From positions 1 to 26,358 of the forward strand of contig JAFGBV010000268.1 in the NCBI GenBank assembly GCA_016932955.1: a stretch of 26,358 nucleotides of DNA, written 5' to 3'. How positions within the stretch are numbered: the first letter of the stretch is position 1; every line of letters starts with the position of its first letter. The notes beneath the pieces were generated by a model that was not told the origin of the DNA, did no database searches, and worked only from the letters and a program-made list of their open reading frames with translations. Source of the DNA: Anaerolineales bacterium (GTDB lineage Bacteria > Chloroflexota > Anaerolineae > Anaerolineales > UBA4823). The translations under genes were made by a program, and so were the position numbers. Shown here piece by piece: positions 3,378-26,358 of the stretch.

Positions 3378-3422
3378 GGGAGGCGCAGGCGAATGTTGCT
3401 ATTTGGCAAATTCATCTGCAAA

Positions 3423-3445
3423 CAGATTGTCATTTTGGCAATCTG
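3423..3445. promoter_or_regulatory. Inverted repeat, possible operator
   Basis: CAGATTG (3423-3429) and CAATCTG (3439-3445) form a perfect 7-bp inverted repeat with a 9-base centre. It covers the -35 box and most of the spacer of the ATPase promoter, where a bound repressor would block RNA polymerase. The regulator is not in the window and the binding role is inferred only from position and symmetry. Confidence 0.4.
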
Positions 3446-3455
3446 CGAATATAAT
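3427..3455 (+). promoter_or_regulatory. Strong sigma70-like promoter of the ABC ATPase gene
   Basis: TTGTCA (3427-3432) and a perfect TATAAT (3450-3455) are separated by exactly 17 bases. The start codon at 3492 lies about 30 bases past the expected transcription start, with AAAGGAG in between. A perfect 7-bp inverted repeat overlaps the -35 box and spacer and is listed separately. Confidence 0.7.
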
Positions 3456-3491
3456 TACGCTACCATATATTCGACGAAAGGAGCAAATCTT

Positions 3492-4592
3492 ATGGCAAGC
3501 GTTACGTATGATCATGTCTACAAGCGGTTTGGCGATGTTATTGCGGTCAATGACCTGAACATCACCATAGCAGACAAGGAATTTCTCGTTTTGGTTGGGC
3601 CTTCTGGCTGCGGGAAAACAACCGCGCTGCGATGCCTGGCCGGGCTGGAAGAAATCAGCGAGGGGAAGATCATGATCGCCGACCGCGTCGTCAACGACGT
3701 GGCCCCGAAAGATCGCGATATTGCAATGGTCTTCCAGTCCTACGCTCTCTATCCGCACATGAGCGTGTATGACAACATGGCTTTCGGGCTGAAACTGCGC
3801 AAGGTACCCAAAGATGAGATCAAGCGCAGAGTGGAGGCAGCGGCAGCAATTTTGGGTATTGAGGGCCTCCTGGACCGCAAACCCCGCCAGCTTTCGGGCG
3901 GCCAGAGGCAGCGCGTGGCAGTCGGACGGGCTATCGTGCGCGAGCCTAAGGTTTTCTTGTTCGACGAGCCCCTATCCAACCTGGATGCCAAACTGCGCGT
4001 GGAGACCCGCGCGAACATCAGCAAGCTGCACCAGCAACTGCAGACCACCTTCATTTACGTGACCCACGACCAGGTGGAGGCGATGACCATGGCCTCCCGC
4101 ATTGCGGTGATCAATAAGGGTATTTTGCAGCAAATCGACACGCCGCAGAGCCTATATGACCGCCCAGATAACCTATTCGTGGCGGGCTTCATCGGTTCTC
4201 CCGCAATGAACTTCTTCAAAACCAAGCTGGAGCGCGGCGATGGCAAACTCTTCATCAATGGAGGCTCCTTCCGCGTTGAAGTGCCCGGCGACCGTGTCAA
4301 TACCTACATGAAATATGCGGACAAGCCAGTGATCATGGGCATCCGCCCCGAAAATATCCATGATCCTCAGTATCAGCCAGCGAACATCTTCCCACAGCCC
4401 GTAGAAGGGACTGTAGATGTGACTGAGCTGATGGGGAACGAAATCTTCCTGTACATGACCAGCGGCGAACACGCATTTGTCGCCCGGGTTGACCCACGCA
4501 CCAAAGTAGCGATGGGTGAAAAGACCCAGGTGGCCTTCAACATGGGCAATATGCATCTGTTCGACCCGGACACTGAGCAGGCAATTCGCTAG
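3492..4592 (+). CDS. Carbohydrate ABC transporter ATP-binding protein (MsmK/UgpC/MalK type)
   Basis: This cytoplasmic ATPase would drive CUT1-family importers of sugars, oligosaccharides or glycerol-3-phosphate. The start at 3492 (MASVTYDHVYKRFG) is chosen over an upstream in-frame ATG because AAAGGAG lies 8 bases before it and homologues begin here; this gives 366 residues, usual for the family. Visible motifs are Walker A GPSGCGKTT at 36-44, Q-loop Q82, signature LSGGQRQ at 134-140, Walker B VFLFDEP ending at 160, D-loop NLDAK and H-loop H192. The C-terminal third is the TOBE/MalK regulatory region, with the typical GIRPENI segment. No permease or binding-protein gene adjoins it, so it is probably a shared ATPase; the sugar permeases at the right of the window lack a visible one. 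Substrate cannot be told from sequence. Confidence 0.93.
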   Translation: MASVTYDHVYKRFGDVIAVNDLNITIADKEFLVLVGPSGCGKTTALRCLAGLEEISEGKIMIADRVVNDVAPKDRDIAMVFQSYALYPHMSVYDNMAFGLKLRKVPKDEIKRRVEAAAAILGIEGLLDRKPRQLSGGQRQRVAVGRAIVREPKVFLFDEPLSNLDAKLRVETRANISKLHQQLQTTFIYVTHDQVEAMTMASRIAVINKGILQQIDTPQSLYDRPDNLFVAGFIGSPAMNFFKTKLERGDGKLFINGGSFRVEVPGDRVNTYMKYADKPVIMGIRPENIHDPQYQPANIFPQPVEGTVDVTELMGNEIFLYMTSGEHAFVARVDPRTKVAMGEKTQVAFNMGNMHLFDPDTEQAIR

Positions 4593-7171: not shown

Positions 7172-9262
7172 CTAATACTCGTACAACAACCAGGATACGA
7201 GGTTATAGATGAAAGTAATGCGTACATCATCCGGCAAACGATAGAGGGCGAAAGCGCCCAAAACGTAGCGCCCGTAAGTATCGTCGCTGGCGATCAACAC
7301 TGGTGTGCCCGCACTGGGGCTGGTTGGCCCGCGTGAGAGCACGATCGAGGTGGTTTCATCTAGCGTGAAATCTTCTTCGCTGATCACCAGGCTTTCCACG
7401 CCGCTCAGTGATTCCAGAAGTGTAAGTGGTTCCTCAGGGAAACCATAAGCCAGCGGGTGTTCGGTGTCCACCAGCTCGAGATCGTACAGCGGCGCAGGCA
7501 GCGTTGCCAGCATAAAAGAAGGCAGCAACGCCTGGTCACCCAGGATAGCCATACTACCCTCGAAGCTGAAGATTACATCCAAAACATCCATATCTGTATC
7601 ATCAGCCGCGTAGTCGCCCGAGTCGTAGATCACCGCATCATAACCATCCAGATCACTCTCACTGGGAATTCCATCCAGGTTGGTAGACCAGATCGTTACT
7701 GTATAATACGGGCTGAGCAGTTCTTCCAGCTCAGTCTGGCTGGTTTGAACGCCGATCGCGCCATCATCATTGGAAAGGATAAACACGCTCGACACATCAT
7801 AGTAGTAATCATCGTCTGTGCCGCTATCGTCCCAGTAGTCATCATCCTCATGGCTTGTATCTCCCTGAGATGTGCACACGTAAATCGTCTCAGTATTGGC
7901 GCAATCTACCAAGTCCTGATCGGAAAGCCGTTCTACTGCCACGCGCACAGCCGCCTCGTCCCAGGCCAGCACCACCAAGACAACCCGGGAATCAACATCC
8001 CCAACAAGGAACAAGGCCGTATCTGGCGCCAAAAAAGTTCCCAGCTCCGGCACCGCCACCGTATCCTGAGGTGGTTCTTCATCTTCCTCGTCCAGACCAC
8101 TATCACTTTCTTCCTGGCTGGGCAGATCTATAACAATCCCAGCCTCATCCAGGTATGCTTGCACAGTATCCAATGCATCGAATGTGCCAAAGTACAGTAC
8201 ATCATGGTCAGCATCAGGCTCACTGCGCAGGGTCACCTCAATTCCTGCCTGATCCAGGGAATATTGCAGCGTCTCCTGCAGTGACAGCCACTCTGTGTCC
8301 AGCGGTTCATCCGTTGTTTTAACCAGATCTACCGGGCCATCAAACAGGTAGGGGAAATCCTGCAAATCCCACTGGCGTTGTGCACCCACCATCCAATCGG
8401 CAATGTTGCTCAAGAAATGATCGTTATCAGCAATCGTATGGTATGGGGTGGTCATCAGGGTCATATCACCCAGCGCAAGTACGCGTCCCTCAGCGGTAAG
8501 AATGCCAGCAGCCAGATTTTCCTCCCCCGTACGTACATTAGAATGCGTTTGCGCATCACCCGCCAGGATCACCTCTCCCGGCCCTTCCAGTGAGTGCGTG
8601 GCATTCAGAATGATCGTTTCCAGGCCTTGGGTAAGCGCCTGACCTTCAGCAAACCCGCTGATACTCACATTGCGATAGTTGCCTGCGTTTTCTTCCAGGT
8701 TATACAGGTAATCGTCAAAATAGACAATTCCGAAAGCCTGCGAGATGCTGTTCACGGAAGGGATAGCGCTGACCGGGAAGAATACCGAAAAGAGATCATA
8801 GGAATCGGCGTAAGCCGGGCGGGTTGGGTCCGCAGCAATGAGCACATGCCCGCCATCCTGTACAAATGCCAAGACAGCATCCACTTCTTCCTCGTAAAAC
8901 TCATAGGCTGGCGCAACTACCACATAAGCAACCGCCCCGCGCAGGCTCTGTTCCAGGGTGGTGGAATAACCATCATAGGTTTCAATGCTCACGCCGCGCG
9001 CTGCCAGCCGATCGCGCAGGGGGGTCAGATCATCGATCAAGAGGTTATTATCGTGTGCCAGGTCGAGCACCACGCGCCCTTCTGCCTGGACGGGTGTGTC
9101 CTCATAAAGAGTATAAGTTACCTCTGGCAGGCGTATCTGGCTATCTTGAACCTCGGGAATCTCGCCGGGGTCGTAGCGAGTAAAATTAAGCCACAGCCAT
9201 CTTCCAGCAATTGGAAGCCCGATCAAAAGCAAAAACAAGAGGATTTTCGCCATCGTCTTCAT
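7172..9262 (-). CDS. Membrane-anchored DUF4350-like protein with two GATase-like domains, acidic
   Basis: The 696-residue protein starts with one membrane helix (about residues 5-24), leaving the rest probably outside the membrane. Residues 60-300 resemble DUF4350/ThuA-like Rossmann folds: GRVVLDLAHDNN, then YVVVAPAYEFYEEEVDAVL, FVQDGGHVLIAADPT and a later VLALGDMTLMTT. A related second module lies at about 500-690, with VFILSNDDGA and GSMAILGDQALLPSF, and ends in YGRYVLGAFALYRLP. Between them are strongly acidic low-complexity stretches (SDSGLDEEDEEPP; EDDDYWDDSGTDDDYYYD). No catalytic Cys-His dyad is evident, so it may bind rather than catalyse. The start overlaps the sppA stop in an ATGA, which implies translational coupling. 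It resembles periplasmic parts of gliding or ABC-linked GldG proteins, but that link is weak. Confidence 0.55.
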   Translation of the reverse strand: MKTMAKILLFLLLIGLPIAGRWLWLNFTRYDPGEIPEVQDSQIRLPEVTYTLYEDTPVQAEGRVVLDLAHDNNLLIDDLTPLRDRLAARGVSIETYDGYSTTLEQSLRGAVAYVVVAPAYEFYEEEVDAVLAFVQDGGHVLIAADPTRPAYADSYDLFSVFFPVSAIPSVNSISQAFGIVYFDDYLYNLEENAGNYRNVSISGFAEGQALTQGLETIILNATHSLEGPGEVILAGDAQTHSNVRTGEENLAAGILTAEGRVLALGDMTLMTTPYHTIADNDHFLSNIADWMVGAQRQWDLQDFPYLFDGPVDLVKTTDEPLDTEWLSLQETLQYSLDQAGIEVTLRSEPDADHDVLYFGTFDALDTVQAYLDEAGIVIDLPSQEESDSGLDEEDEEPPQDTVAVPELGTFLAPDTALFLVGDVDSRVVLVVLAWDEAAVRVAVERLSDQDLVDCANTETIYVCTSQGDTSHEDDDYWDDSGTDDDYYYDVSSVFILSNDDGAIGVQTSQTELEELLSPYYTVTIWSTNLDGIPSESDLDGYDAVIYDSGDYAADDTDMDVLDVIFSFEGSMAILGDQALLPSFMLATLPAPLYDLELVDTEHPLAYGFPEEPLTLLESLSGVESLVISEEDFTLDETTSIVLSRGPTSPSAGTPVLIASDDTYGRYVLGAFALYRLPDDVRITFIYNLVSWLLYEY

Positions 9263-10161
9263 TTCTCACCCCTCAGGATTAGATCATATAACAGATAGAT
9301 ACCCGGCGGCAGGGTGCGCTCCCCGGTCAGCGGGTCTGCTGCACCTGACCAGGTCAACTCCCCGTAATAATACTTCTCCAGGAACGCATCCAGCACCGTC
9401 TCTTCCAGATCTACCACATCATATTCCCGCAAACCCGCCAGCTCGGCGGCTTTCGCAACTGCTTCGCTCTGGCTGCCCAGCGCATCGATCATACCCATGC
9501 TAAGCGCATTCCGTCCGGGGTACGCCAGCCCTTGAGAGAGTTCAACCGGTGTGATGACCAGGCGTGAGCCTCGTTGGGTTACCACGGTGGCAAGAAATTC
9601 TTGCTTGATGCCCTCGATCTCGCGCAGGAATGCCTGATCGTTGCTGGCTGTGAGCTTGAACGGACCGCTGGCAAGCACCACATCGTTAACGCCGATGTTG
9701 TAAGGAAAATACCCCCACACGCCAACGTTGCCAATTGTCGAGGACGGTTTGGCGTACAGGTAATCGGTGGCCATCGCCACATAGTAGCCGCCGCTGGCAG
9801 CCATGGTGTCGATCGAGCCAACCACCGGCATGCGCGTACGCAACTCTTGCAACTCCAGATAGATCGCCTGGGTGGCAACAACCTCACCGCCAGGGGAATC
9901 GATCTGGAACACAACTGCCTTGATGCGCTCATCTTGCCTGGCAGCATCGATCTCCAGATTGACCAGCTCTGCGCTCAGGGTCCAGATATCTTCCCTCAGG
10001 CGAATGATGCCAACTGCCGGCTTTGGAATGGCATAGAAAGCCACCACTGCGCCAATCACCAATGGCAAGATTACCCAGAACAAGCAACCGATGGTGAATC
10101 GCCCCGCCGAAGTTTTTCGCTTCGGCTTTGGCGGTTCGGGGGGTGGAATATATTCGCTCAT
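9259..10161 (-). CDS. sppA: S49 family signal peptide peptidase (SppA-type serine protease)
   Basis: SppA enzymes cleave remnant signal peptides and other membrane-associated peptides using a Ser-Lys dyad. The start at 10161 (MSEYIPPPEPPKPKRK) is chosen because AAGGAG lies just upstream; an earlier in-frame ATG at 10182 is possible and the longest frame would overlap the preceding gene. The 300-residue product has a Pro/Lys-rich cytoplasmic head, one membrane helix (about 26-48), then the ClpP-like fold. The oxyanion region IDSPGGEV, the nucleophile S123 in MAASGGYY, the SSTIGNVGVWG strand and the likely general base K169 in SGPFK are all in place. This is the short, single-domain type found in Gram-positives and archaea. 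Its operon position with membrane proteins fits envelope quality control. Confidence 0.88.
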   Translation of the reverse strand: MSEYIPPPEPPKPKRKTSAGRFTIGCLFWVILPLVIGAVVAFYAIPKPAVGIIRLREDIWTLSAELVNLEIDAARQDERIKAVVFQIDSPGGEVVATQAIYLELQELRTRMPVVGSIDTMAASGGYYVAMATDYLYAKPSSTIGNVGVWGYFPYNIGVNDVVLASGPFKLTASNDQAFLREIEGIKQEFLATVVTQRGSRLVITPVELSQGLAYPGRNALSMGMIDALGSQSEAVAKAAELAGLREYDVVDLEETVLDAFLEKYYYGELTWSGAADPLTGERTLPPGIYLLYDLILRGEK

Positions 10162-10956: not shown

Positions 10957-12537
10957 TTAATAACCTATTTGTTCCAGGTCGCCGAATAGAACATAACTCA
11001 GAACCATATTATTGGTGATCCATTCGATTGGCGACCAGTCATCGGTATAAACCACATCAACCGGCGGTGTGGGCTGGTGATTATTGATCGCCACCTGGAT
11101 CGATTCCAGCAGCAAAGGATGGGCGTTGCCGCGCGCCACCAGAGCCTGGTGGTTCTGCTCCAGATTTGAAAAATCTGTCGGCTGCAGCGTGGCATAGACG
11201 ATTGTATTGAATGAATAGGGCACGTCGGCGACGTACACCGAAGGAAACACGGTCTGGATGGTGCTTGCAAGGTCGTCGATCAAGCGCCGGTCGCTGGGCG
11301 AGCGCCCGATATTAATCACCATCACGCCATCTTCTGCCAGGTGGTCATACACACTGCGGAAGAACTCTTGCGTCGTCAGGTGCCAGGGGATATAGGGAGG
11401 CCGGTAAGCATCAATGCCGATAATGGTATAGCGCTGCTGTGCATGTTCCAGTCCCCAACGCCCATCTTGCGCATACGCGTTCAGATTGGGAAGGTTCATA
11501 CCGAAGTACTGGCGACCCACTTCGATGATCTGTGGATCGATCTCGTAGCCATCGATCGGGATCGCACCATATACTGCCGTAGCCTGGCGCGGGATCGTCC
11601 CGGCTGCCAACCCCACAACTGCCATACTCTCCACATCTTGCTCGGTAAATGGAGGAGCATTGAAAAAGGGAGCCACCAGGAATTGCTGCCAGGGGCCGCC
11701 ATAATTGAGATGCTCGGGGTGCCAGATGGAATGGATACCCTGCCCTTCATTGAGGCGCAGCCAATGATAACCATCCCGCTCAATCACCTGGATGTAGTTA
11801 TACGCTGACTCTACCTCATAGATCTGCCCGTTGGTCTGCTTGATTGGTCCTGCCGCCCACAGGATTGCCAGCACCGCCAGAATTATCACCATCCATCCCA
11901 TAGGCAGCGTTTTACGCCAGCCGACCTCCCTCCAGAGACCAAGGAGTGCGACTAGGAGTAAAAATACGCTGAAGATCAAAAATGTGTAGGTAGTGCCAAA
12001 GATGGGGATCATCACCAGCACAGGCAAAAACGTGCCAATAAACGAGCCCAACGTGGATACAGCATAGATCTGCCCCGAAATACGCCCCGCCTCGCGCGAA
12101 TCGCGGATCGCCAACCGGATGGCAAAAGGTGAGATCGTACCCAGCAGGGTTACCGGAACGATGAAGAGGATCAAAACAGCGGTAAACGCGCCAAATAAGA
12201 TGCCCACCTGCAGTTGATCAAATGCATCTGCTGCCATGCGTAGCACCGGCCGCGCCGCAAAAGGCACCAGGCCCGAGGTGAATGCCCCCCAGGCTAAAAC
12301 CCGGTACATCGTCTGCGGGTGAGGCGACCGGTCTGCCCAACGCCCGCCAATAAAATAGCCGGCGGTGAGGTAGATCAAGATCAAGCCGATAATGCTGGCC
12401 CATACCAGGTTGCTGGTGCCAAAAACACTGCCCAGCAAACGTGAAGCAGAAAGCTCAAGCGCTAACGTGGTCATGCCAGAGATGAAGACGGTGAAGTAGA
12501 GGTAGCGTTTCATTTTCAGATGCGATGTATTCTCCAT
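10957..12537 (-). CDS. Spermidine synthase-like protein with N-terminal membrane domain
   Basis: The 526-residue product joins a membrane domain of about seven or eight helices (residues 10-235, MFS-like, opening with FISGMTTLALELSASRLLG) to a polyamine-synthase-like methyltransferase fold. In the second part VVGLAAGTIPRQ is the cofactor-binding glycine loop, GYEIDPQIIEVGRQYF carries the acidic residue that would hold the ribose, and GIDAYRPPYIPWHLTTQEFF follows. Such fused proteins are common in environmental bacteria; whether they make polyamines is generally not shown. The usual DxxDP-like catalytic motif of true spermidine synthases is not obvious here, so an aminopropyltransferase activity is uncertain. 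It is the first gene of the four-gene operon, with a TATAAT box about 33 bases upstream. MKRYLYF, eight residues in, is another possible start. Confidence 0.8.
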   Translation of the reverse strand: MENTSHLKMKRYLYFTVFISGMTTLALELSASRLLGSVFGTSNLVWASIIGLILIYLTAGYFIGGRWADRSPHPQTMYRVLAWGAFTSGLVPFAARPVLRMAADAFDQLQVGILFGAFTAVLILFIVPVTLLGTISPFAIRLAIRDSREAGRISGQIYAVSTLGSFIGTFLPVLVMIPIFGTTYTFLIFSVFLLLVALLGLWREVGWRKTLPMGWMVIILAVLAILWAAGPIKQTNGQIYEVESAYNYIQVIERDGYHWLRLNEGQGIHSIWHPEHLNYGGPWQQFLVAPFFNAPPFTEQDVESMAVVGLAAGTIPRQATAVYGAIPIDGYEIDPQIIEVGRQYFGMNLPNLNAYAQDGRWGLEHAQQRYTIIGIDAYRPPYIPWHLTTQEFFRSVYDHLAEDGVMVINIGRSPSDRRLIDDLASTIQTVFPSVYVADVPYSFNTIVYATLQPTDFSNLEQNHQALVARGNAHPLLLESIQVAINNHQPTPPVDVVYTDDWSPIEWITNNMVLSYVLFGDLEQIGY

Positions 12538-12667: not shown

Positions 12668-13105
12668 ATGTTAAAAGAATTCAAAGAATTTGCCATGCGT
12701 GGCAGCGTGCTCGACCTGGCAATCGGCCTCATCATTGGTGGCGCGTTTGGGAAGATCGTGACCTCATTCGTGAATGATATCCTCATGCCACCCATTGGTT
12801 TGCTGCTGGGGAAAATCAACTTTACCGACTTGTTCATCACACTGTCAGGTGAGAAATTCACCACCCTGGCAGATGCCCAAGCGAATGGGGCTGTGACCTG
12901 GAATTACGGCATCTTCATCAGCGCGATCGTGGATTTCTTAATCGTGGCCTTTGTGATCTTTTTGCTGGTGCGCCAGATCAACAAAATGAAAGCCCAACCC
13001 GCCCCAGCACCTGCTGCACCGACCACCAAAGAATGCCCTTACTGCTTCACCACCATCCCCATCCAGGCTAAACGCTGCCCCCATTGCACATCCGATCTTG
13101 AGTAG
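12668..13105 (+). CDS. mscL: Large-conductance mechanosensitive channel with C-terminal zinc ribbon
   Basis: MscL opens under membrane tension to release solutes during hypo-osmotic shock. The first 105 residues match the family: the amphipathic N-terminus [20 protein letters not shown], the pore-lining helix with [12 protein letters not shown] and [11 protein letters not shown], an outside loop, and the second helix (about 80-102). After a Pro/Ala linker the usual C-terminal helical bundle is replaced by a small zinc ribbon with C123, C126, C137 and C140 (CPYC and CPHC). The total of 145 residues is close to the typical 130-150. The start has an excellent AAGGAGGA. I have a general impression that ribbon-tailed MscL proteins occur in some Gram-positive and Chloroflexota lineages, so the tail is probably a lineage variant. 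Confidence 0.93.
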
Positions 13106-20535: not shown

Positions 20536-21348
20536 ATGCAGCTCGCCATAAACTACTCCCTCCCTGCCGCAAACCTGGTCACAGAAAAACAGATCCCCCT
20601 GGATTACTTTAAAACCCCGGATTGGCCTGACATGATCGCCGATGCCCGGCTTCTGCGTCCGGTGGCGGTGCATTTCACCTTGCACGCTGGTCACCCCAAC
20701 CTGAGAAACACCGATTGGACGTCGATTGAGCGCCTATTGAGCGAAACCAGCACCCCCTTTGTCAACCTGCACCTGGACCCCATCATCGAGCATTACCCCG
20801 GCATGCACGTCGACACAGTTGACCTCCTTGACCAGGAATTGGTGCTAGAGCAGATCATTTTCGATGTAGAGACAGTAGCCGGCTGGTTTGGCAAGGAAAA
20901 AGTCATCGTGGAAAATGTCCCCTACCGCGCACTGGAAGGGAAAGTCCTGCGACCAGCGGTAGAACCGGCGACGATCCAGACCCTGCTTGCCGAAACCGGT
21001 TGTGGGCTGCTGCTTGACCTGCAACACGCCCGCATTGCCGCCCATTATCTGGGCATCGATGAGCGCCAGTACATCGCCAGCTTACCCACCCAGCGCATCA
21101 AAGAGATGCATTTCGCCGGCTTACACAATCAAAACGGGAGATTGGAAGACCACCTGGATGCCACGGAGGAAGATTGGAGGCTGCTCGAATGGGCGCTAGA
21201 AAACATCCGGTGCGGAGAGTGGTCAGCGCCGTGGCTGCTCGCTTTCGAGTACGGCGGCGTGGGCGAGATCTTCGACTGGCGCAGCGACCCAAATGTGATG
21301 CAAGTGCAAGTCCCGCGGCTCTACGAGATGGTACACGCTGCGCGATAG
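20536..21348 (+). CDS. DUF692-like (MNIO-type) TIM-barrel protein
   Basis: The 270-residue product begins [15 protein letters not shown] at 20536, with GGAAG five bases upstream; an earlier ATG at 20476 lies inside the preceding gene and is disfavoured. The TIM-barrel pattern fits the DUF692 family, recently named multinuclear non-haem iron oxidases, or a close sugar-phosphate-isomerase relative. Candidate metal ligands appear in the right order: [18 protein letters not shown]126-N127 (VENVPYR), D161 and H164 ([11 protein letters not shown]), E190 and H192 (EMHFAGLH), D205 (EDHLD) and E238 (FEYGG). MbnB and TglH of this family modify RiPP peptides with a partner protein. Neither precursor nor partner is visible here, so a housekeeping variant seems more likely. 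The 3' end overlaps the converging ROK gene by 28 bases. Confidence 0.7.
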
Positions 21349-22235
21349 GCATCCTGCGCCAGCGCTAATGCGCCTAAAACACCTGCGCGCCCGCCCAGGG
21401 CAGGTGGGACAATATACTGGTCGATCTCAGTCAGCAAGGCTGGAGATTGAACATATCCATTCAGCAGCAATTGCACACGCTGGCGCACCAGCGGAAATAG
21501 CTGCATTTGCGACATCACACCGCCGCCCAAGATAATACGCTGTGGGGATAGGACGCAAATGTAATTCACCAGTCCCAAGGCCAAATACTCTGCTTCAAGG
21601 TCCCAGGCGGGATGGTCCGGCGGGAGCGTTTCAGCCCGCTGACCCCAGCGTTCCTCAATCGCCGGACCGTTGGCCAGTCCTTCCAAACAGGTGCCGTGAA
21701 AAGGGCAATGTCCTGGATACGGATCTCGCACCGGATCATGCGGCAACAAGATATGCCCCATCTCAGGGTGAACCAGCCCATGCGCCAGCTTCCCACCGAC
21801 CATTGCGCCGCCCCCGATGCCTGTTCCAATGGTAAGGTAAATGAACGTATCCAGGCCCTGTGCTGCGCCCCAACGCCCTTCAGCCAGAGCAGCGCCATTC
21901 ACATCCGTATCGAACCCAATTGGAAGATCGAAAACGTCACGCATTGCCCCAATAAAGTTCGTATTGCTCCAACCCGGCTTCGTCGTGGAGGTTATATATC
22001 CATAGGTTGGCGAACAAGGTTCAGGGTCTAACGGACCAAAAGAAGCAATACCCAATGCCTCAAATGCTCCATGCGCATCAACGGCCTGACGAAAGAAGGC
22101 GATTGCCTTACCCAGTGTTTCCTGAGGCGTTGTGGTCAGGAAGCGCGTTTCGGCGCGAATATCCTGCGGACCACTGCCAATTGCGCAAACAAATTTCGTT
22201 CCACCCGCTTCGATGCCTGCAAATAGTTTCTCCAT
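21321..22235 (-). CDS. ROK family sugar kinase (fructokinase-like)
   Basis: The product is 304 residues and would phosphorylate a hexose such as fructose, glucose or a related sugar with ATP in the cytoplasm. The phosphate loop is [12 protein letters not shown] (8-19). D111 in [13 protein letters not shown] is the expected catalytic base and [13 protein letters not shown] follows. The zinc site is H161 ([10 protein letters not shown]) with C177, H180 and C183 in [12 protein letters not shown], the arrangement of the bacterial fructokinase (GmuE/ScrK-type) branch. The start lies one base after the treS-like stop and uses AAAGGGTG inside that gene, so the two are translationally coupled. That pairing suggests the kinase acts on a sugar released or imported by the same operon. 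The 3' end overlaps the DUF692 gene on the other strand. Confidence 0.88.
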
Positions 22236-22236
22236 A

Positions 22237-23859
22237 TCACCCTTTCAGCCATAAAAACTGAAACGGTGCTAATTTTAACTGCAATTGGCTATTTTGTGCA
22301 CTCGAAGCAGGAGCGGTTGGTTGGTATACCAGTAGGGAATCAATACTTCGGATTTTCGGCGGCAGGATCACGGTTTGTGCTTCTGGAGAAAGATTGTTCA
22401 CGATGAGGATCTCCTCACCCTGATACACACGCCAATAGACCGCTACAGACTGCTGGTAACTCTCCTCCCAGATGAGATCACCCAGGCCAAAAGCCTTGTG
22501 CGCCTTCCGTACAGCGATCATGTGCTTGACCATCTGAAGAAGCGATTTTGGATCAGCACACTGGGCAGCAACATTAACATTGCCAGGGTCATAGGGGTGC
22601 GAATCATTTACAGGGGCAAAAAGAGATTCTAAGGTCGCCGTAGAAAAGCCTGCACCCACGGATGGATCCCACTGCATGGGGGTACGCACGCCGTTGCGAT
22701 CTGGCAACCAGATATTATCTCCCATGCCAATCTCATCGCCATAATAAAGCACAGGCGAACCCGGCAAGGTGAAAAGCAATGAATAGGCCAATTCGATCTT
22801 GCGACGGTCATTCTCTAACAATGGCGCCAGGCGCCGGCGAATCCCCAGGTTAAGACGCATGCGCGGGTCGGGGGCGTATTCCTGCCACATCCACTCTCGC
22901 TCCTGCTCTGTGACCATCTCCAGCGTCAGCTCATCATGGTTGCGCAGAAACGTACACCACTGGCAATTCCTAGGAATGGTAGGGGTGCGCTCCAGAATCC
23001 ACTGGATCGGCTGGCGGTTGCCCTGGCGTAAAGCCATGTAAATGCGCGGCATCACCGGGAAATGAAAACCCATATGAAATTCATCTCCCTCTCCAAAATA
23101 TGGGCGTACATCCTCTGGCCATTGGTTAGCCTCTGCCAGCAGGATGCGTCCCGGATAATTCTCATCCATGAAACGGCGAATCCGTTTGAGATATTCATGG
23201 GTTTCAGGCAGGTTTTCGCAATTGGTGCCCTCGCGCTCAAACAAATATGGCACAGCATCTGCGCGAAATCCATCAATCCCCATATCCAACCAGAACTTCA
23301 TCACCTTGATCATTTCCTTGCGCACCCGAGGATTGGCATAATTTAGATCTGGCTGAGAAGCATAAAAGCGATGCCAGTAATACTGCCCTGCCTGCTCATC
23401 CCAACTCCAATTAGAGCGCTCAGTATCCAGGAAAATGACCCGTGCATCACTATATTTTTGATCCGTATCGCTCCAGACATAGTAGTCCCGATAGGGCGAA
23501 GTACGGTCTGCCCGCGCGGCCTGGAACCAGGGGTGTTGGTCAGAGGTATGGTTCAATACCAGATCGGTAATAATGCGCATGCCGCGCGCATGCACTGCTT
23601 CTACCAAACGCTTGAAATGCCCCAAGGTACCATATTCGCGCAATATGCTGTAATAATCGGCAATGTCGTAACCATCATCTAATAGCGGTGAGGAGTAGAT
23701 CGGCAGCAGCCATAAGCAGTCAACCCCCAGGTCTTGCAAATAATCCAGCTTGGAGGTCAGGCCAGGCAGGTCGCCGTGCCCATCCGCATTGGAATCACAG
23801 AAAGCTCGCACATATAACTCATAAAAGACTGCGTTTTGATACCACAAAGATTCATTCAT
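22237..23859 (-). CDS. treS: GH13 trehalose synthase-like enzyme (maltose-trehalose interconversion)
   Basis: The start at 23859 ([20 protein letters not shown]) matches where homologues begin; the longer frame to 23910 adds 17 residues unlike the family. The 540-residue TIM-barrel enzyme fits GH13 subfamily 16, which isomerises maltose to trehalose through a glucosyl intermediate. The catalytic set is D201 ([14 protein letters not shown]) as nucleophile, E243 (ILLAEANQW) as acid/base and D309 (LRNHDEL). Early landmarks are [19 protein letters not shown] and [14 protein letters not shown], and [12 protein letters not shown] and [10 protein letters not shown] are also typical. The C-terminal part is short and has no fused maltokinase. 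An alpha-amylase or glucosidase activity cannot be excluded. The operon context suggests the substrate is imported by the adjoining ABC system. Confidence 0.88.
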
Positions 23860-23965
23860 AAGACACACCACGTTAGGGAATCTCAAGCGTCTGCTGAAAT
23901 TCCTCAGCATTTAATCGTCTGCTCTGAAACCACACAGGTCTTGTATGGATCAACCAAATTGCTGC

Positions 23966-24000: not shown

Positions 24001-25185
24001 TTAACCTTTTACCGCACCAGCCAGCATGCCCCGAACAAAATAACGTTGAAAAGCGAAGAAAATGATCATGGGCAACAGCATCGACAAGAAAGCGGATGCC
24101 GTCAGCAGATGCCACCCAGCACCGAGAGAGGAGACCATGTTACTGATCTGGTAGGTCATCACAGGGTTGTTGCCGCCCAGGAACACGAGGGCCACCAGCA
24201 GATCATTCCATACCCATAAGAATTGGAAGATAGCCAGTGCAGCGATTGCTGGCATTGCCAAGGGGATTGCTAGCTTATGGAAAGCGGTCCAGTGTGAAGC
24301 CCCGTCCAGGTAAGCCGACTCAAACAGGTCGCGCGGCAACGTCCCCAGGAAGTTGCGCATCAGATAGATCGAATAGGGCATTCCAAACCCGGTATGGAAC
24401 AGCCACACTCCCAGAAACGTGCCGTTCAGGCCCAGTTGTGCGAATGTTCGTGAGATCGGGACCAAAGTCATTTGCAAGGGAATCACTTGTAGCCCTACCA
24501 AAATTGCAAACAACCAGTATCGGCCTTTGAAATCTAGCCAGGCAAAGGCGTACCCGGCAAACGCCGCAAATAAGATTGGCAGGATCGTTGCAGGCACGGT
24601 TACAACCAGGCTGTTGATGAACGCCCTTCCCATCCCTCGCGGGTTGAGCAGATCTGAGAGGTTACAATTCATCCCTGGCGGTGGCGAGCCGGATTCACAA
24701 TCAGCCTGGTATGTATTGGTGCCACGATAGCCTACCAGAGCATCGACATAGTTATTAAGCGTAAGCTTGGGGGTGCTTTCACCGCCAGCCATCCGTTTCA
24801 TCTGGGCGGCGATATCCGCAGCCTCTTGGGCTGACGGCAGGGGAATATCGCCCATGTGCGGCTGCCCATCGATCTCCCTGCGCAGCATCGCCAGCAATTG
24901 CAGCGAGCGCGGATACTCTTCGATCACTGCAGGGTCGCTCAGGTTTGCCGTTACGATCTTTGCCCCATCCACCCCATGGCAATCGCCACAAAACTGGTTG
25001 TACTCTTCTGATCCGGGTGGGGCGGCAAGCGCCATCCACCAGCCATTGGTATTCACAGATTGCACCGGACGGAACGAGGTCACCAGTAAGCCCAGGGCTG
25101 GTATCAGCCAGATCAACATAAGGCCAATCACCGCCATATGCAGCGGGAGTCGATTGAAGATTCGGTTAATCTTGCTCTTGTTCAT
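24001..25185 (-). CDS. CUT1 sugar ABC permease (MalG type) with inserted cytochrome c domain
   Basis: The 394-residue product is the inner permease subunit of a carbohydrate importer. The first helix (about 15-36) ends in LVTSFRP. The permease core from TLNNYVDAL (142) on has the usual five further helices, with the ATPase-contacting EAA loop at 289-310 (ESAYLDGASHW and IPLAMP). Between them, residues about 58-135 form a c-type cytochrome-like domain: EEYNQFCGDCHGVDG with C66, C69 and H70, LSDPAVIEEY, LRREIDG, PHMGDIP with M111 as likely distal ligand, and the helix EAADIAAQMKRMAGG. A second insertion at 151-183 holds C163 and C174. The insertions lie in the outside loop, where haem c attachment is possible. 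Typical MalG proteins are about 275-300 residues. The start overlaps the upstream permease stop (ATGA) with AGGAGG 7 bases before it. Confidence 0.88.
   Translation of the reverse strand: MNKSKINRIFNRLPLHMAVIGLMLIWLIPALGLLVTSFRPVQSVNTNGWWMALAAPPGSEEYNQFCGDCHGVDGAKIVTANLSDPAVIEEYPRSLQLLAMLRREIDGQPHMGDIPLPSAQEAADIAAQMKRMAGGESTPKLTLNNYVDALVGYRGTNTYQADCESGSPPPGMNCNLSDLLNPRGMGRAFINSLVVTVPATILPILFAAFAGYAFAWLDFKGRYWLFAILVGLQVIPLQMTLVPISRTFAQLGLNGTFLGVWLFHTGFGMPYSIYLMRNFLGTLPRDLFESAYLDGASHWTAFHKLAIPLAMPAIAALAIFQFLWVWNDLLVALVFLGGNNPVMTYQISNMVSSLGAGWHLLTASAFLSMLLPMIIFFAFQRYFVRGMLAGAVKG
24781..25014 (-). other. Cytochrome c-like domain encoded within the permease gene
   Basis: This stretch, in frame with the permease, encodes one complete small cytochrome c fold in the order expected of cbb3/class I domains. 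The CXXCH haem site CGDCH is encoded at 24976-24990 and the likely axial Met at 24853-24855. The spacing of 41 residues between His and Met is short but within the range of minimal cytochrome domains. Permease sequence resumes directly after the final helix. Confidence 0.85.
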
Positions 25186-26229: not shown

Positions 26230-26244
26230 GGAGAAATGAAATGT

Positions 26245-26358
26245 TTACTTGCCGAGTGCTTCAGCCTGGACGGCAGCCGCAGAAGCCAGGGCTGCATCCA
26301 GATCTTCACCACTCAAGTAACTGATGATCGCTGCCCATTCGGCGCTGCCAAAGCCGCC
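26245..26358 (-). CDS. C-terminal end of a carbohydrate-binding lipoprotein (ABC solute-binding protein), partial
   Basis: The last 37 codons of a gene entering from the right edge are visible on the minus strand and end at TAA. They read GGFGSAEWAAIISYLSGEDL and end in AEALGK, an alternating helical tail as seen in extracellular sugar-binding proteins of this family, where the last helices repeat a (S/T)..(V)..Y(L/M).(S/G) pattern. The position directly upstream of two CUT1 permeases, with a hairpin between them, supports this. The 5' part, with signal peptide and ligand residues, is outside the window, so the substrate class cannot be judged. Confidence 0.65.
   Translation of the reverse strand, partial: GGFGSAEWAAIISYLSGEDLDAALASAAAVQAEALGK

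Follow-up and report, generated by a model that had tools for sequence, protein, structure and literature searches.

The permease characterised here is of the CUT1 type and has acquired a class-I-like cytochrome c domain, which many members of one bacterial order have kept. It is encoded in a stretch of 26,358 nucleotides, referred to below as the window. The joining of this domain to a MalG-type permease is real and widely conserved. As to its function, we infer that the domain is an extracytoplasmic c-haem redox sensor that may gate alpha-glucoside import by way of binding-protein docking, and we put the probability of this reading at about one half.

The permease and its inserted domain

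The permease gene forms one continuous, intact frame, just as an earlier preliminary description had claimed (Table 1). Pfam analysis locates a BPD_transp_1 domain at residues 207–387 (4.2e-15), and the nearest solved relatives by sequence in the PDB are SugB (8.9e-25) and MalG (4e-14). The chains of both proteins are also matched by the full-length structural model. The first and second long helices of this model cover residues 3–37 and 185–216, and the loop carrying the CXXCH motif lies between them. The loop following TM1 of MalG-type subunits is outside the membrane, and the basic N-terminus of the window permease agrees with an outside location of the TM1–TM2 loop. We infer that the haem domain is placed outside the membrane, in the first extracytoplasmic loop.

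Table 1 Coordinates of the permease, its conserved residues and the associated genes in the window
Feature	Position	Strand	Evidence or remarks
MalG/AglG-type permease with inserted cytochrome c domain, 394 aa	24001..25185	-	single open frame, intact
Cytochrome c domain, residues ~48–136 (probable)	24778..25044	-	Cytochrome_CBB3 in excised loop; homologues; CcoP profile match
CGDCH haem c attachment motif, C66-C69-H70	24976..24990	-	120/120 homologues; 273/273 distinct domain-bearing sequences
H110, proposed distal haem ligand	24856..24858	-	His in 270/273
M111, ligand named in the preliminary description, not conserved	24853..24855	-	273 sequences: Met 137, Val 83, Leu 47, Ile 4, Thr 2
C163...C174 loop, probable disulfide before TM2	24664..24699	-	both Cys in 273/273 haem members
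ROK-family sugar kinase	21321..22235	-	ROK 8.9e-61; fructokinase ScrK 275.3 bits, below cut-off 400
Trehalose synthase-like GH13 (maltose alpha-D-glucosyltransferase, TreS type)	22237..23910	-	TIGR02456 836.7 bits, cut-off 678.35; Alpha-amylase 8.6e-100
Partner MalF-type permease, 320 aa	25182..26144	-	BPD_transp_1 5.9e-20; 4-bp overlap with haem permease
Probable solute-binding protein, C-terminal end, cut by window edge	26241..26358	-	sequence; ORF at same place in relatives
MalK-type ATPase, ~19 kb off, candidate for the importer	3393..4592	+	ABC_tran 7.7e-32, OB_MalK 6.2e-15

The preliminary description had placed a cytochrome c domain at 24781–25014, which corresponds to residues 58–135 of the permease. 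In the window protein the signal for such a domain is below threshold. Cytochrome_CBB3 scores 20.7 bits with the whole protein (5.2e-4) and 23.5 bits with the excised loop (7.3e-5), in both cases below the Pfam cut-off of 27 bits, and Cytochrom_C is likewise under its cut-off (0.13 and 0.011, respectively). Taken by itself, the window protein is suggestive of a cytochrome c domain and not conclusive, and it is the relatives that appear to settle the question. Cytochrome_CBB3 is found in 116 of the 120 best-listed homologues at E ≤ 1e-3 (best 4.5e-8) and BPD_transp_1 in all 120; precomputed annotation adds PF13442 for many, not all, of the same proteins. The Pfam comparison suggested in the preliminary description gave BPD_transp_1 and, for the cytochrome families, scores under the cut-off in the window protein; of the outcomes named there as speaking against the proposal, this is the only one that arose, and then in part, given the Cytochrome_CBB3 matches in the relatives. 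The central claim of that description, of a cytochrome c domain within a MalG-type permease, in a loop expected on the outer side, is borne out.

In the full-length model the loop contains helices at residues 59–70, 94–102 and 119–132 (block pLDDT 73–89), an order compatible with a cytochrome c fold. The model of the domain alone is poor (pLDDT 65.6), giving one Foldseek match (E 5.7), no VIA match and no match to a solved cytochrome. Cytochromes are also not among the 50 matches listed in each full-length structure search, places that the permease part fills.

Homologues and their distribution

A homologue search over approximately 5.8 billion proteins identified 7998 relatives; the 120 best were listed. 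A second search, which used the divergent protein P0121 (locus L010) as query and was scored on residues 45–200 only, gave 172 proteins, again with the best 120 listed. CXXCH is present in 240 of the 241 proteins from both searches (the window protein and P0121 included), and the lone protein without it, P0216, is an N-terminally cut fragment. In one source the homologues are often named 'alpha-glucoside transport system permease protein'.

Among loci from named genomes, 14 of 80 (the best 80 of 589 confirmed) have CXXCH in the permease frame, and the record titles of these 14 are all Chloroflexi, Anaerolineales, Anaerolineaceae or Levilinea. Of 400 genomes sampled from the phylum, at least 9, counting the centre genome, contain the complete haem loop (E ≤ 5.5e-48). 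Of 400 sampled from the order, at least 84 match at E ≤ 1e-10: 68 contain the complete loop, one is cut and 15 match only behind the haem domain. These counts are lower bounds, because at most 10 first-look candidates were scored per genome. Three other phyla gave no haem permease: 0 of 198 sampled genomes in the phylum of a Spirochaetaceae genome (G414, locus L050), and 0 of 249 in each of the phyla of a Rhizobium (G411, locus L019) and a Paenibacillus genome (G412, locus L020), in samples that had no internal positive control, the identical query being positive in its own phylum and order. One homologue, P0220, is labelled as a partial Spirochaetota protein and is possibly a contamination.

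The same architecture occurs on many contigs and in several sources, including the chromosome record CP070708.1 (locus L012). An assembly chimera, which the preliminary description had named as a way in which its proposal could fail, or a chance motif is contradicted by these relatives, because they share the architecture across contigs, sources and sampled genomes, and we give it practically no weight. The fusion was to be sought in related genomes, and there it was found, the full haem loop being present in at least 68 of the 400 genomes of the order.

Conserved residues of the domain

The codons of C66, C69 and H70 are at 24988–24990, 24979–24981 and 24976–24978 on the minus strand. The three residues are invariant, both in the 120 best-listed homologues and in the whole set of 273 distinct domain-bearing sequences, where distinct means differing in the last 330 residues. 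Since these 273 had originally been picked by their CXXCH, a set of 276 distinct rows was recounted by filled domain columns. More than 50 of the 68 domain positions are filled in 273 of the rows, and all 273 have CXXCH; the remaining three are the fragment P0216 and two haem-less members. Retention of the motif, another point on which the preliminary description had staked its case, is complete in the collected sequences that have the domain. CXXCH is found within the first 200 residues in none of 63 outgroup permeases of the same family. Because of this absence and of the invariance of C66, C69 and H70, the motif is, as judged from the sequences, more than chance. A haem c covalently attached at C66 and C69 is strongly indicated, and H70 would be its proximal ligand.

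The distal ligand differs from that originally suggested. The preliminary description named M111 as the conserved partner of H70, and as a conserved sixth ligand it has to be rejected: methionine is found there in only 137 of the 273 sequences, while the neighbouring H110 is histidine in 270. The three exceptions at H110 have either a methionine at the same place (P0127) or a histidine two residues earlier (P0236 and P0239). The divergent locus L170, which is outside the 273, does not have H110 and has the methionine of a GQMP sequence nearby, in the canonical style. H110 is a likely metal ligand because the histidine is either kept or swapped for another possible ligand, and its conservation as compared with that of M111 makes it the better candidate for the distal haem ligand. 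We propose that the haem would be coordinated by H70 and H110, with M111 as an occasional substitute. The conserved distal methionine of class I cytochrome c is thus not present, and it is for this reason that the domain is termed class-I-like.

A second pair of cysteines, C163 and C174, probably forms a disulfide just before TM2. Both residues are also present in 15 of 15 haem-less members of the clade described below, and both together in none of the 63 outgroup permeases. One of these, an Ardenticatenia permease (locus L027, 9980–11032), has a cysteine-rich loop without CXXCH at the same position, possibly a forerunner of the C163/C174 loop.

Gene neighbourhood and partner proteins

In the window the ROK kinase is followed, in order of coordinates, by the TreS-type GH13, the haem permease, its partner and the last part of an ORF in the position of the binding protein (Table 1). 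As in other CUT1 systems, there are BPD_transp_1, an adjoining second permease, binding-protein relatives and a MalK-type ATPase, the last of which presumably pairs with the importer. Evidence for the binding protein comes also from other loci, where the ORF in this position resembles AcbH among solved sugar-binding proteins (L003, 9e-10) or matches SBP_bac_1 (L011, 1.7e-26); it has no Pfam match in L003, L005 or L002. In these last three loci it is followed by two permeases and then by a GH63/MGH1-like hydrolase and a GH13-type gene (the GH13 call in L003 being made from position and N-terminal sequence). A LacI-type regulator is located upstream in L003, L005 and L011.

From the TreS-type GH13 and the ROK kinase alongside, the predicted substrate is an alpha-glucoside, for instance maltose or trehalose. 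The GH63/MGH1-like neighbour in L003, L005 and L002 hints that glucosylglycerate or similar compatible solutes could also be taken up. The hydrolase of L003 (11186–12934) matches MGH1-like at 3.2e-75 and the glucosylglycerate hydrolase model at 105.8 bits, against a cut-off of 550.

The partner permease also has a pair of cysteines, C57 and C63, in its first outside loop. They are present in all 73 clade loci where a partner was found, and in 1 and 0, respectively, of 59 outgroup loci, the partners here being the best BLAST matches within each locus, adjacent or otherwise. A role for the cysteine pairs of the two permeases as part of the haem mechanism was considered and rejected, both pairs being kept in the 15 haem-less members; because they persist without the haem domain, the pairs are more likely to be structural.

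In 15 of 16 inspected loci the permease is the sole carrier of CXXCH among the picked ORFs (100 aa or longer); in the sixteenth, L085, an overlapping ORF had taken the place of the permease frame. None of the 22 neighbour ORFs scanned with Pfam in 5 loci belongs to a redox family (L003, 3 ORFs; L005 and L002, 10; L012, L011 and L016, 9).

Some further observations concern nearby genes. In L012, a single frame just upstream of the permeases (7709–9331) combines a BPD_transp_1_N start with an SBP_bac_8 part, and may be an assembly fault. Elsewhere in the window, an MscL-type channel (12668–13105, plus strand; TIGR00220, 132 bits) ends in a zinc-ribbon-like CPYC...CPHC tail at its C-terminus (UPF0547 3e-4, below cut-off), and a 526-aa protein (10957–12537, minus strand) has a spermidine-synthase-like C-terminal domain (Spermine_synth 2.2e-7, residues 331–449).

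Origin and loss of the domain

The window protein was aligned with 138 other distinct permeases (139 rows), and after L150, which is cut at a contig end, had been dropped, a tree with 138 tips was calculated on the permease core without the loop. In this tree 60 haem-bearing members group together with 15 haem-less ones, separately from the 63 outgroup permeases, which include those of rhizobia, Paenibacillus, cyanobacteria and other Chloroflexota; the printed support for the whole clade is 57, a value possibly displaced by re-rooting. The 15 haem-less members are the same 15 matches from the order sample that lie only behind the haem domain. In the best tree they are nested at two places inside the group, 14 of them in one part.

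A tree in which all haem members are constrained to one clade, obtained by a fast search only, fails the AU test (p 0.0255) and passes the SH test (0.0585). For these reasons nested loss is favoured but unproven, and a haem-less ancestral state is disfavoured. A single gain followed by losses of the domain is thus moderately supported: the domain probably arose once, in an AglG-like clade, at least two lineages of which later lost it in its entirety. No remnant of a cytochrome is recognisable in any of the 15 haem-less clade members. They have 69–85 residues between query positions 40 and 186, compared with 145–163 in the 60 haem members, and the corresponding loops of the 63 outgroup permeases have 35–173 (median 119), mostly of unrelated sequence. 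Because the haem-less members keep C163 and C174 and retain no remnant of the domain, the transporter apparently works without it, as would be expected for a regulatory add-on.

For one haem-less member, L137 (genome G704, on a contig of 179736 bases), the importer may be plasmid-borne; CP069395.1, a Chloroflexota record in a plasmid collection, may be compared.

Haem-related genes in the host genomes

Gene content was compared in 80 genomes, comprising 65 of the 68 haem-domain genomes of the order sample and every one of the 15 loss genomes. Of the haem-domain genomes, 62 of 65 contain the haem-c assembly family PF01578, compared with 8 of 15 loss genomes (Fisher p 1.8e-4), and the haem-copper oxidase subunit COX1 is present in 46 of 65 and 2 of 15 (p 6.3e-5; 44 of 65 and p 2.3e-4 without two genomes that have weak matches only), p-values that overstate the evidence and are not independent tests, because completeness is not given, many of the named genomes are metagenome assemblies, and 14 of the 15 losses are clustered in one part of the tree. 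There are exceptions in both directions: haem-c assembly genes are still found in 8 loss genomes and are absent from 3 haem-domain genomes, and COX1 is not matched in 19 of the 65. Within the 18 genomes made up of the 15 loss genomes and these 3 exceptions, CcmE is present in 7 of the former and none of the latter, and ResB in 1 of the 18. That the domain correlates with genes for haem-c assembly and haem-copper oxidases fits, and does not prove, a role linked to respiration.

Proposed function

On our hypothesis, the AglG/MalG-type subunit of a CUT1 alpha-glucoside importer would bear a monohaem class-I-like cytochrome c domain in its first extracytoplasmic loop, with haem c attached outside at C66 and C69, H70 as its proximal and H110 as its likely distal ligand. 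From this position the domain could make contact with the solute-binding protein or with the other permease. It would act as a redox (perhaps O2-linked) sensor, whose oxidation state or coordination might alter either the docking of the binding protein or the ease with which the transporter opens, and the uptake of alpha-glucosides would in this way track the state of the respiratory chain. In a study of the maltose transporter, the N-lobe of MalE is suggested to contact mainly MalG (PMC3150292), and for this reason a domain in this loop appears to be well placed to affect docking. A more specific version, which we hold tentatively and consider slightly less than an even bet, is that of a redox-gated ABC importer, in which the permease haem, possibly bis-His through H70 and H110, would sense redox state or O2 outside and directly switch sugar uptake. 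In that version the two clade-specific cysteine pairs, predicted to lie on the same side, perhaps act together with the haem.

The haem could instead be structural, the covalently bound cofactor forming the folding core of a docking domain that holds the binding protein and has no redox function. The retention of H70 and H110 in the face of free replacement of M111 would fit such a role, as would the varied loops of the outgroup, which indicate that a haem-free loop can serve. The losses, however, are accompanied by fewer haem-c assembly and oxidase genes, which a structural haem predicts only through haem supply, and we think this explanation rather doubtful. We regard as unlikely an electron-transfer module, in which the haem would relay electrons from one extracytoplasmic partner to another, such as a bc1-type complex or an acceptor outside the cell, while the fusion would do no more than anchor the domain beside sugar uptake. 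The resemblance to the electron-carrying domains of CcoP speaks for it, as does the higher frequency of haem-copper oxidases in haem-domain genomes, but a carrier of this kind sits poorly with a neighbourhood in which the permease has the only CXXCH among the picked ORFs and no scanned ORF is of a redox family, and with the haem-domain genomes in which COX1 is unmatched.

It is very improbable that no haem is bound and that CXXCH is a relic, or a disulfide or metal site in an ordinary loop. The sub-threshold Pfam score of the window protein and the poor domain-only model would be expected on that account, but the domain never occurs without CXXCH, H110 is nearly always kept, and all but three of the haem-domain genomes compared have haem-c assembly genes. 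The redox sensor is favoured over a carrier or a structural haem because of the add-on position of the domain, its loss as a whole and the link to respiratory genes.

If this proposal is correct, ABC import would be controlled by a redox cofactor within its own membrane subunit, and the haem domain could explain how sugar uptake is matched to the supply of electron acceptors in these bacteria. Close relatives have both haem and naturally haem-less versions, and the effect of the domain is therefore measurable in otherwise similar proteins. In the literature searched, which was mostly without subscription papers and preprints, we recognised no prior description of a CUT1 permease with a haem domain and found no report of control of ABC import by a built-in redox cofactor.

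Comparison with known systems

The CUT1 importers MalFGK2-E, SugABC-LpqY and AglEFGK resemble the present system in the BPD_transp_1 core, the partner permease, the sugar-binding protein and the operon with sugar enzymes. They differ from it in the extra domain and in the cysteines. The best matching stretches of the 13 matched PDB sequences (SugB, MalG and others) all start at residue 179 or later, none being in the haem region, and cysteine pairs in both permeases mark the haem-permease clade.

Among solved proteins, the inserted domain most closely resembles the c domains of CcoP, subunit III of the cbb3 oxidase. They have in common the CXXCH and the sequence that follows, with a profile E of 2.7e-7 for the whole CcoP sequence, a value that sums several stretches of which the best single one has an i-E of 0.021. 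The methionine of the CcoP sequence GQMPA, which we take to be its haem ligand, aligns with P109 of the haem permease, one residue before the conserved H110. In contrast to the setting of CcoP in an oxidase, there is no oxidase gene among the scanned neighbours of the permease.

For the placing of a large extracytoplasmic region in a CUT1 permease, the nearest parallel is the P2 region of E. coli MalF. This presumably carries no cofactor, and it lies in MalF and in a different loop, whereas the haem domain is in the MalG-type subunit. MalF-P2 is likewise located beside the binding protein, according to the same study (PMC3150292). For the sensing function, the closest parallels are DcrA, GSU0582 and GSU0935, membrane proteins that are described in PMC8396549 as sensing redox state with a c haem bound covalently in an extracytoplasmic domain. 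These are chemoreceptors, with PAS-like domains in the case of the Geobacter proteins, while the haem permease has a cytochrome-like domain and is a transporter.
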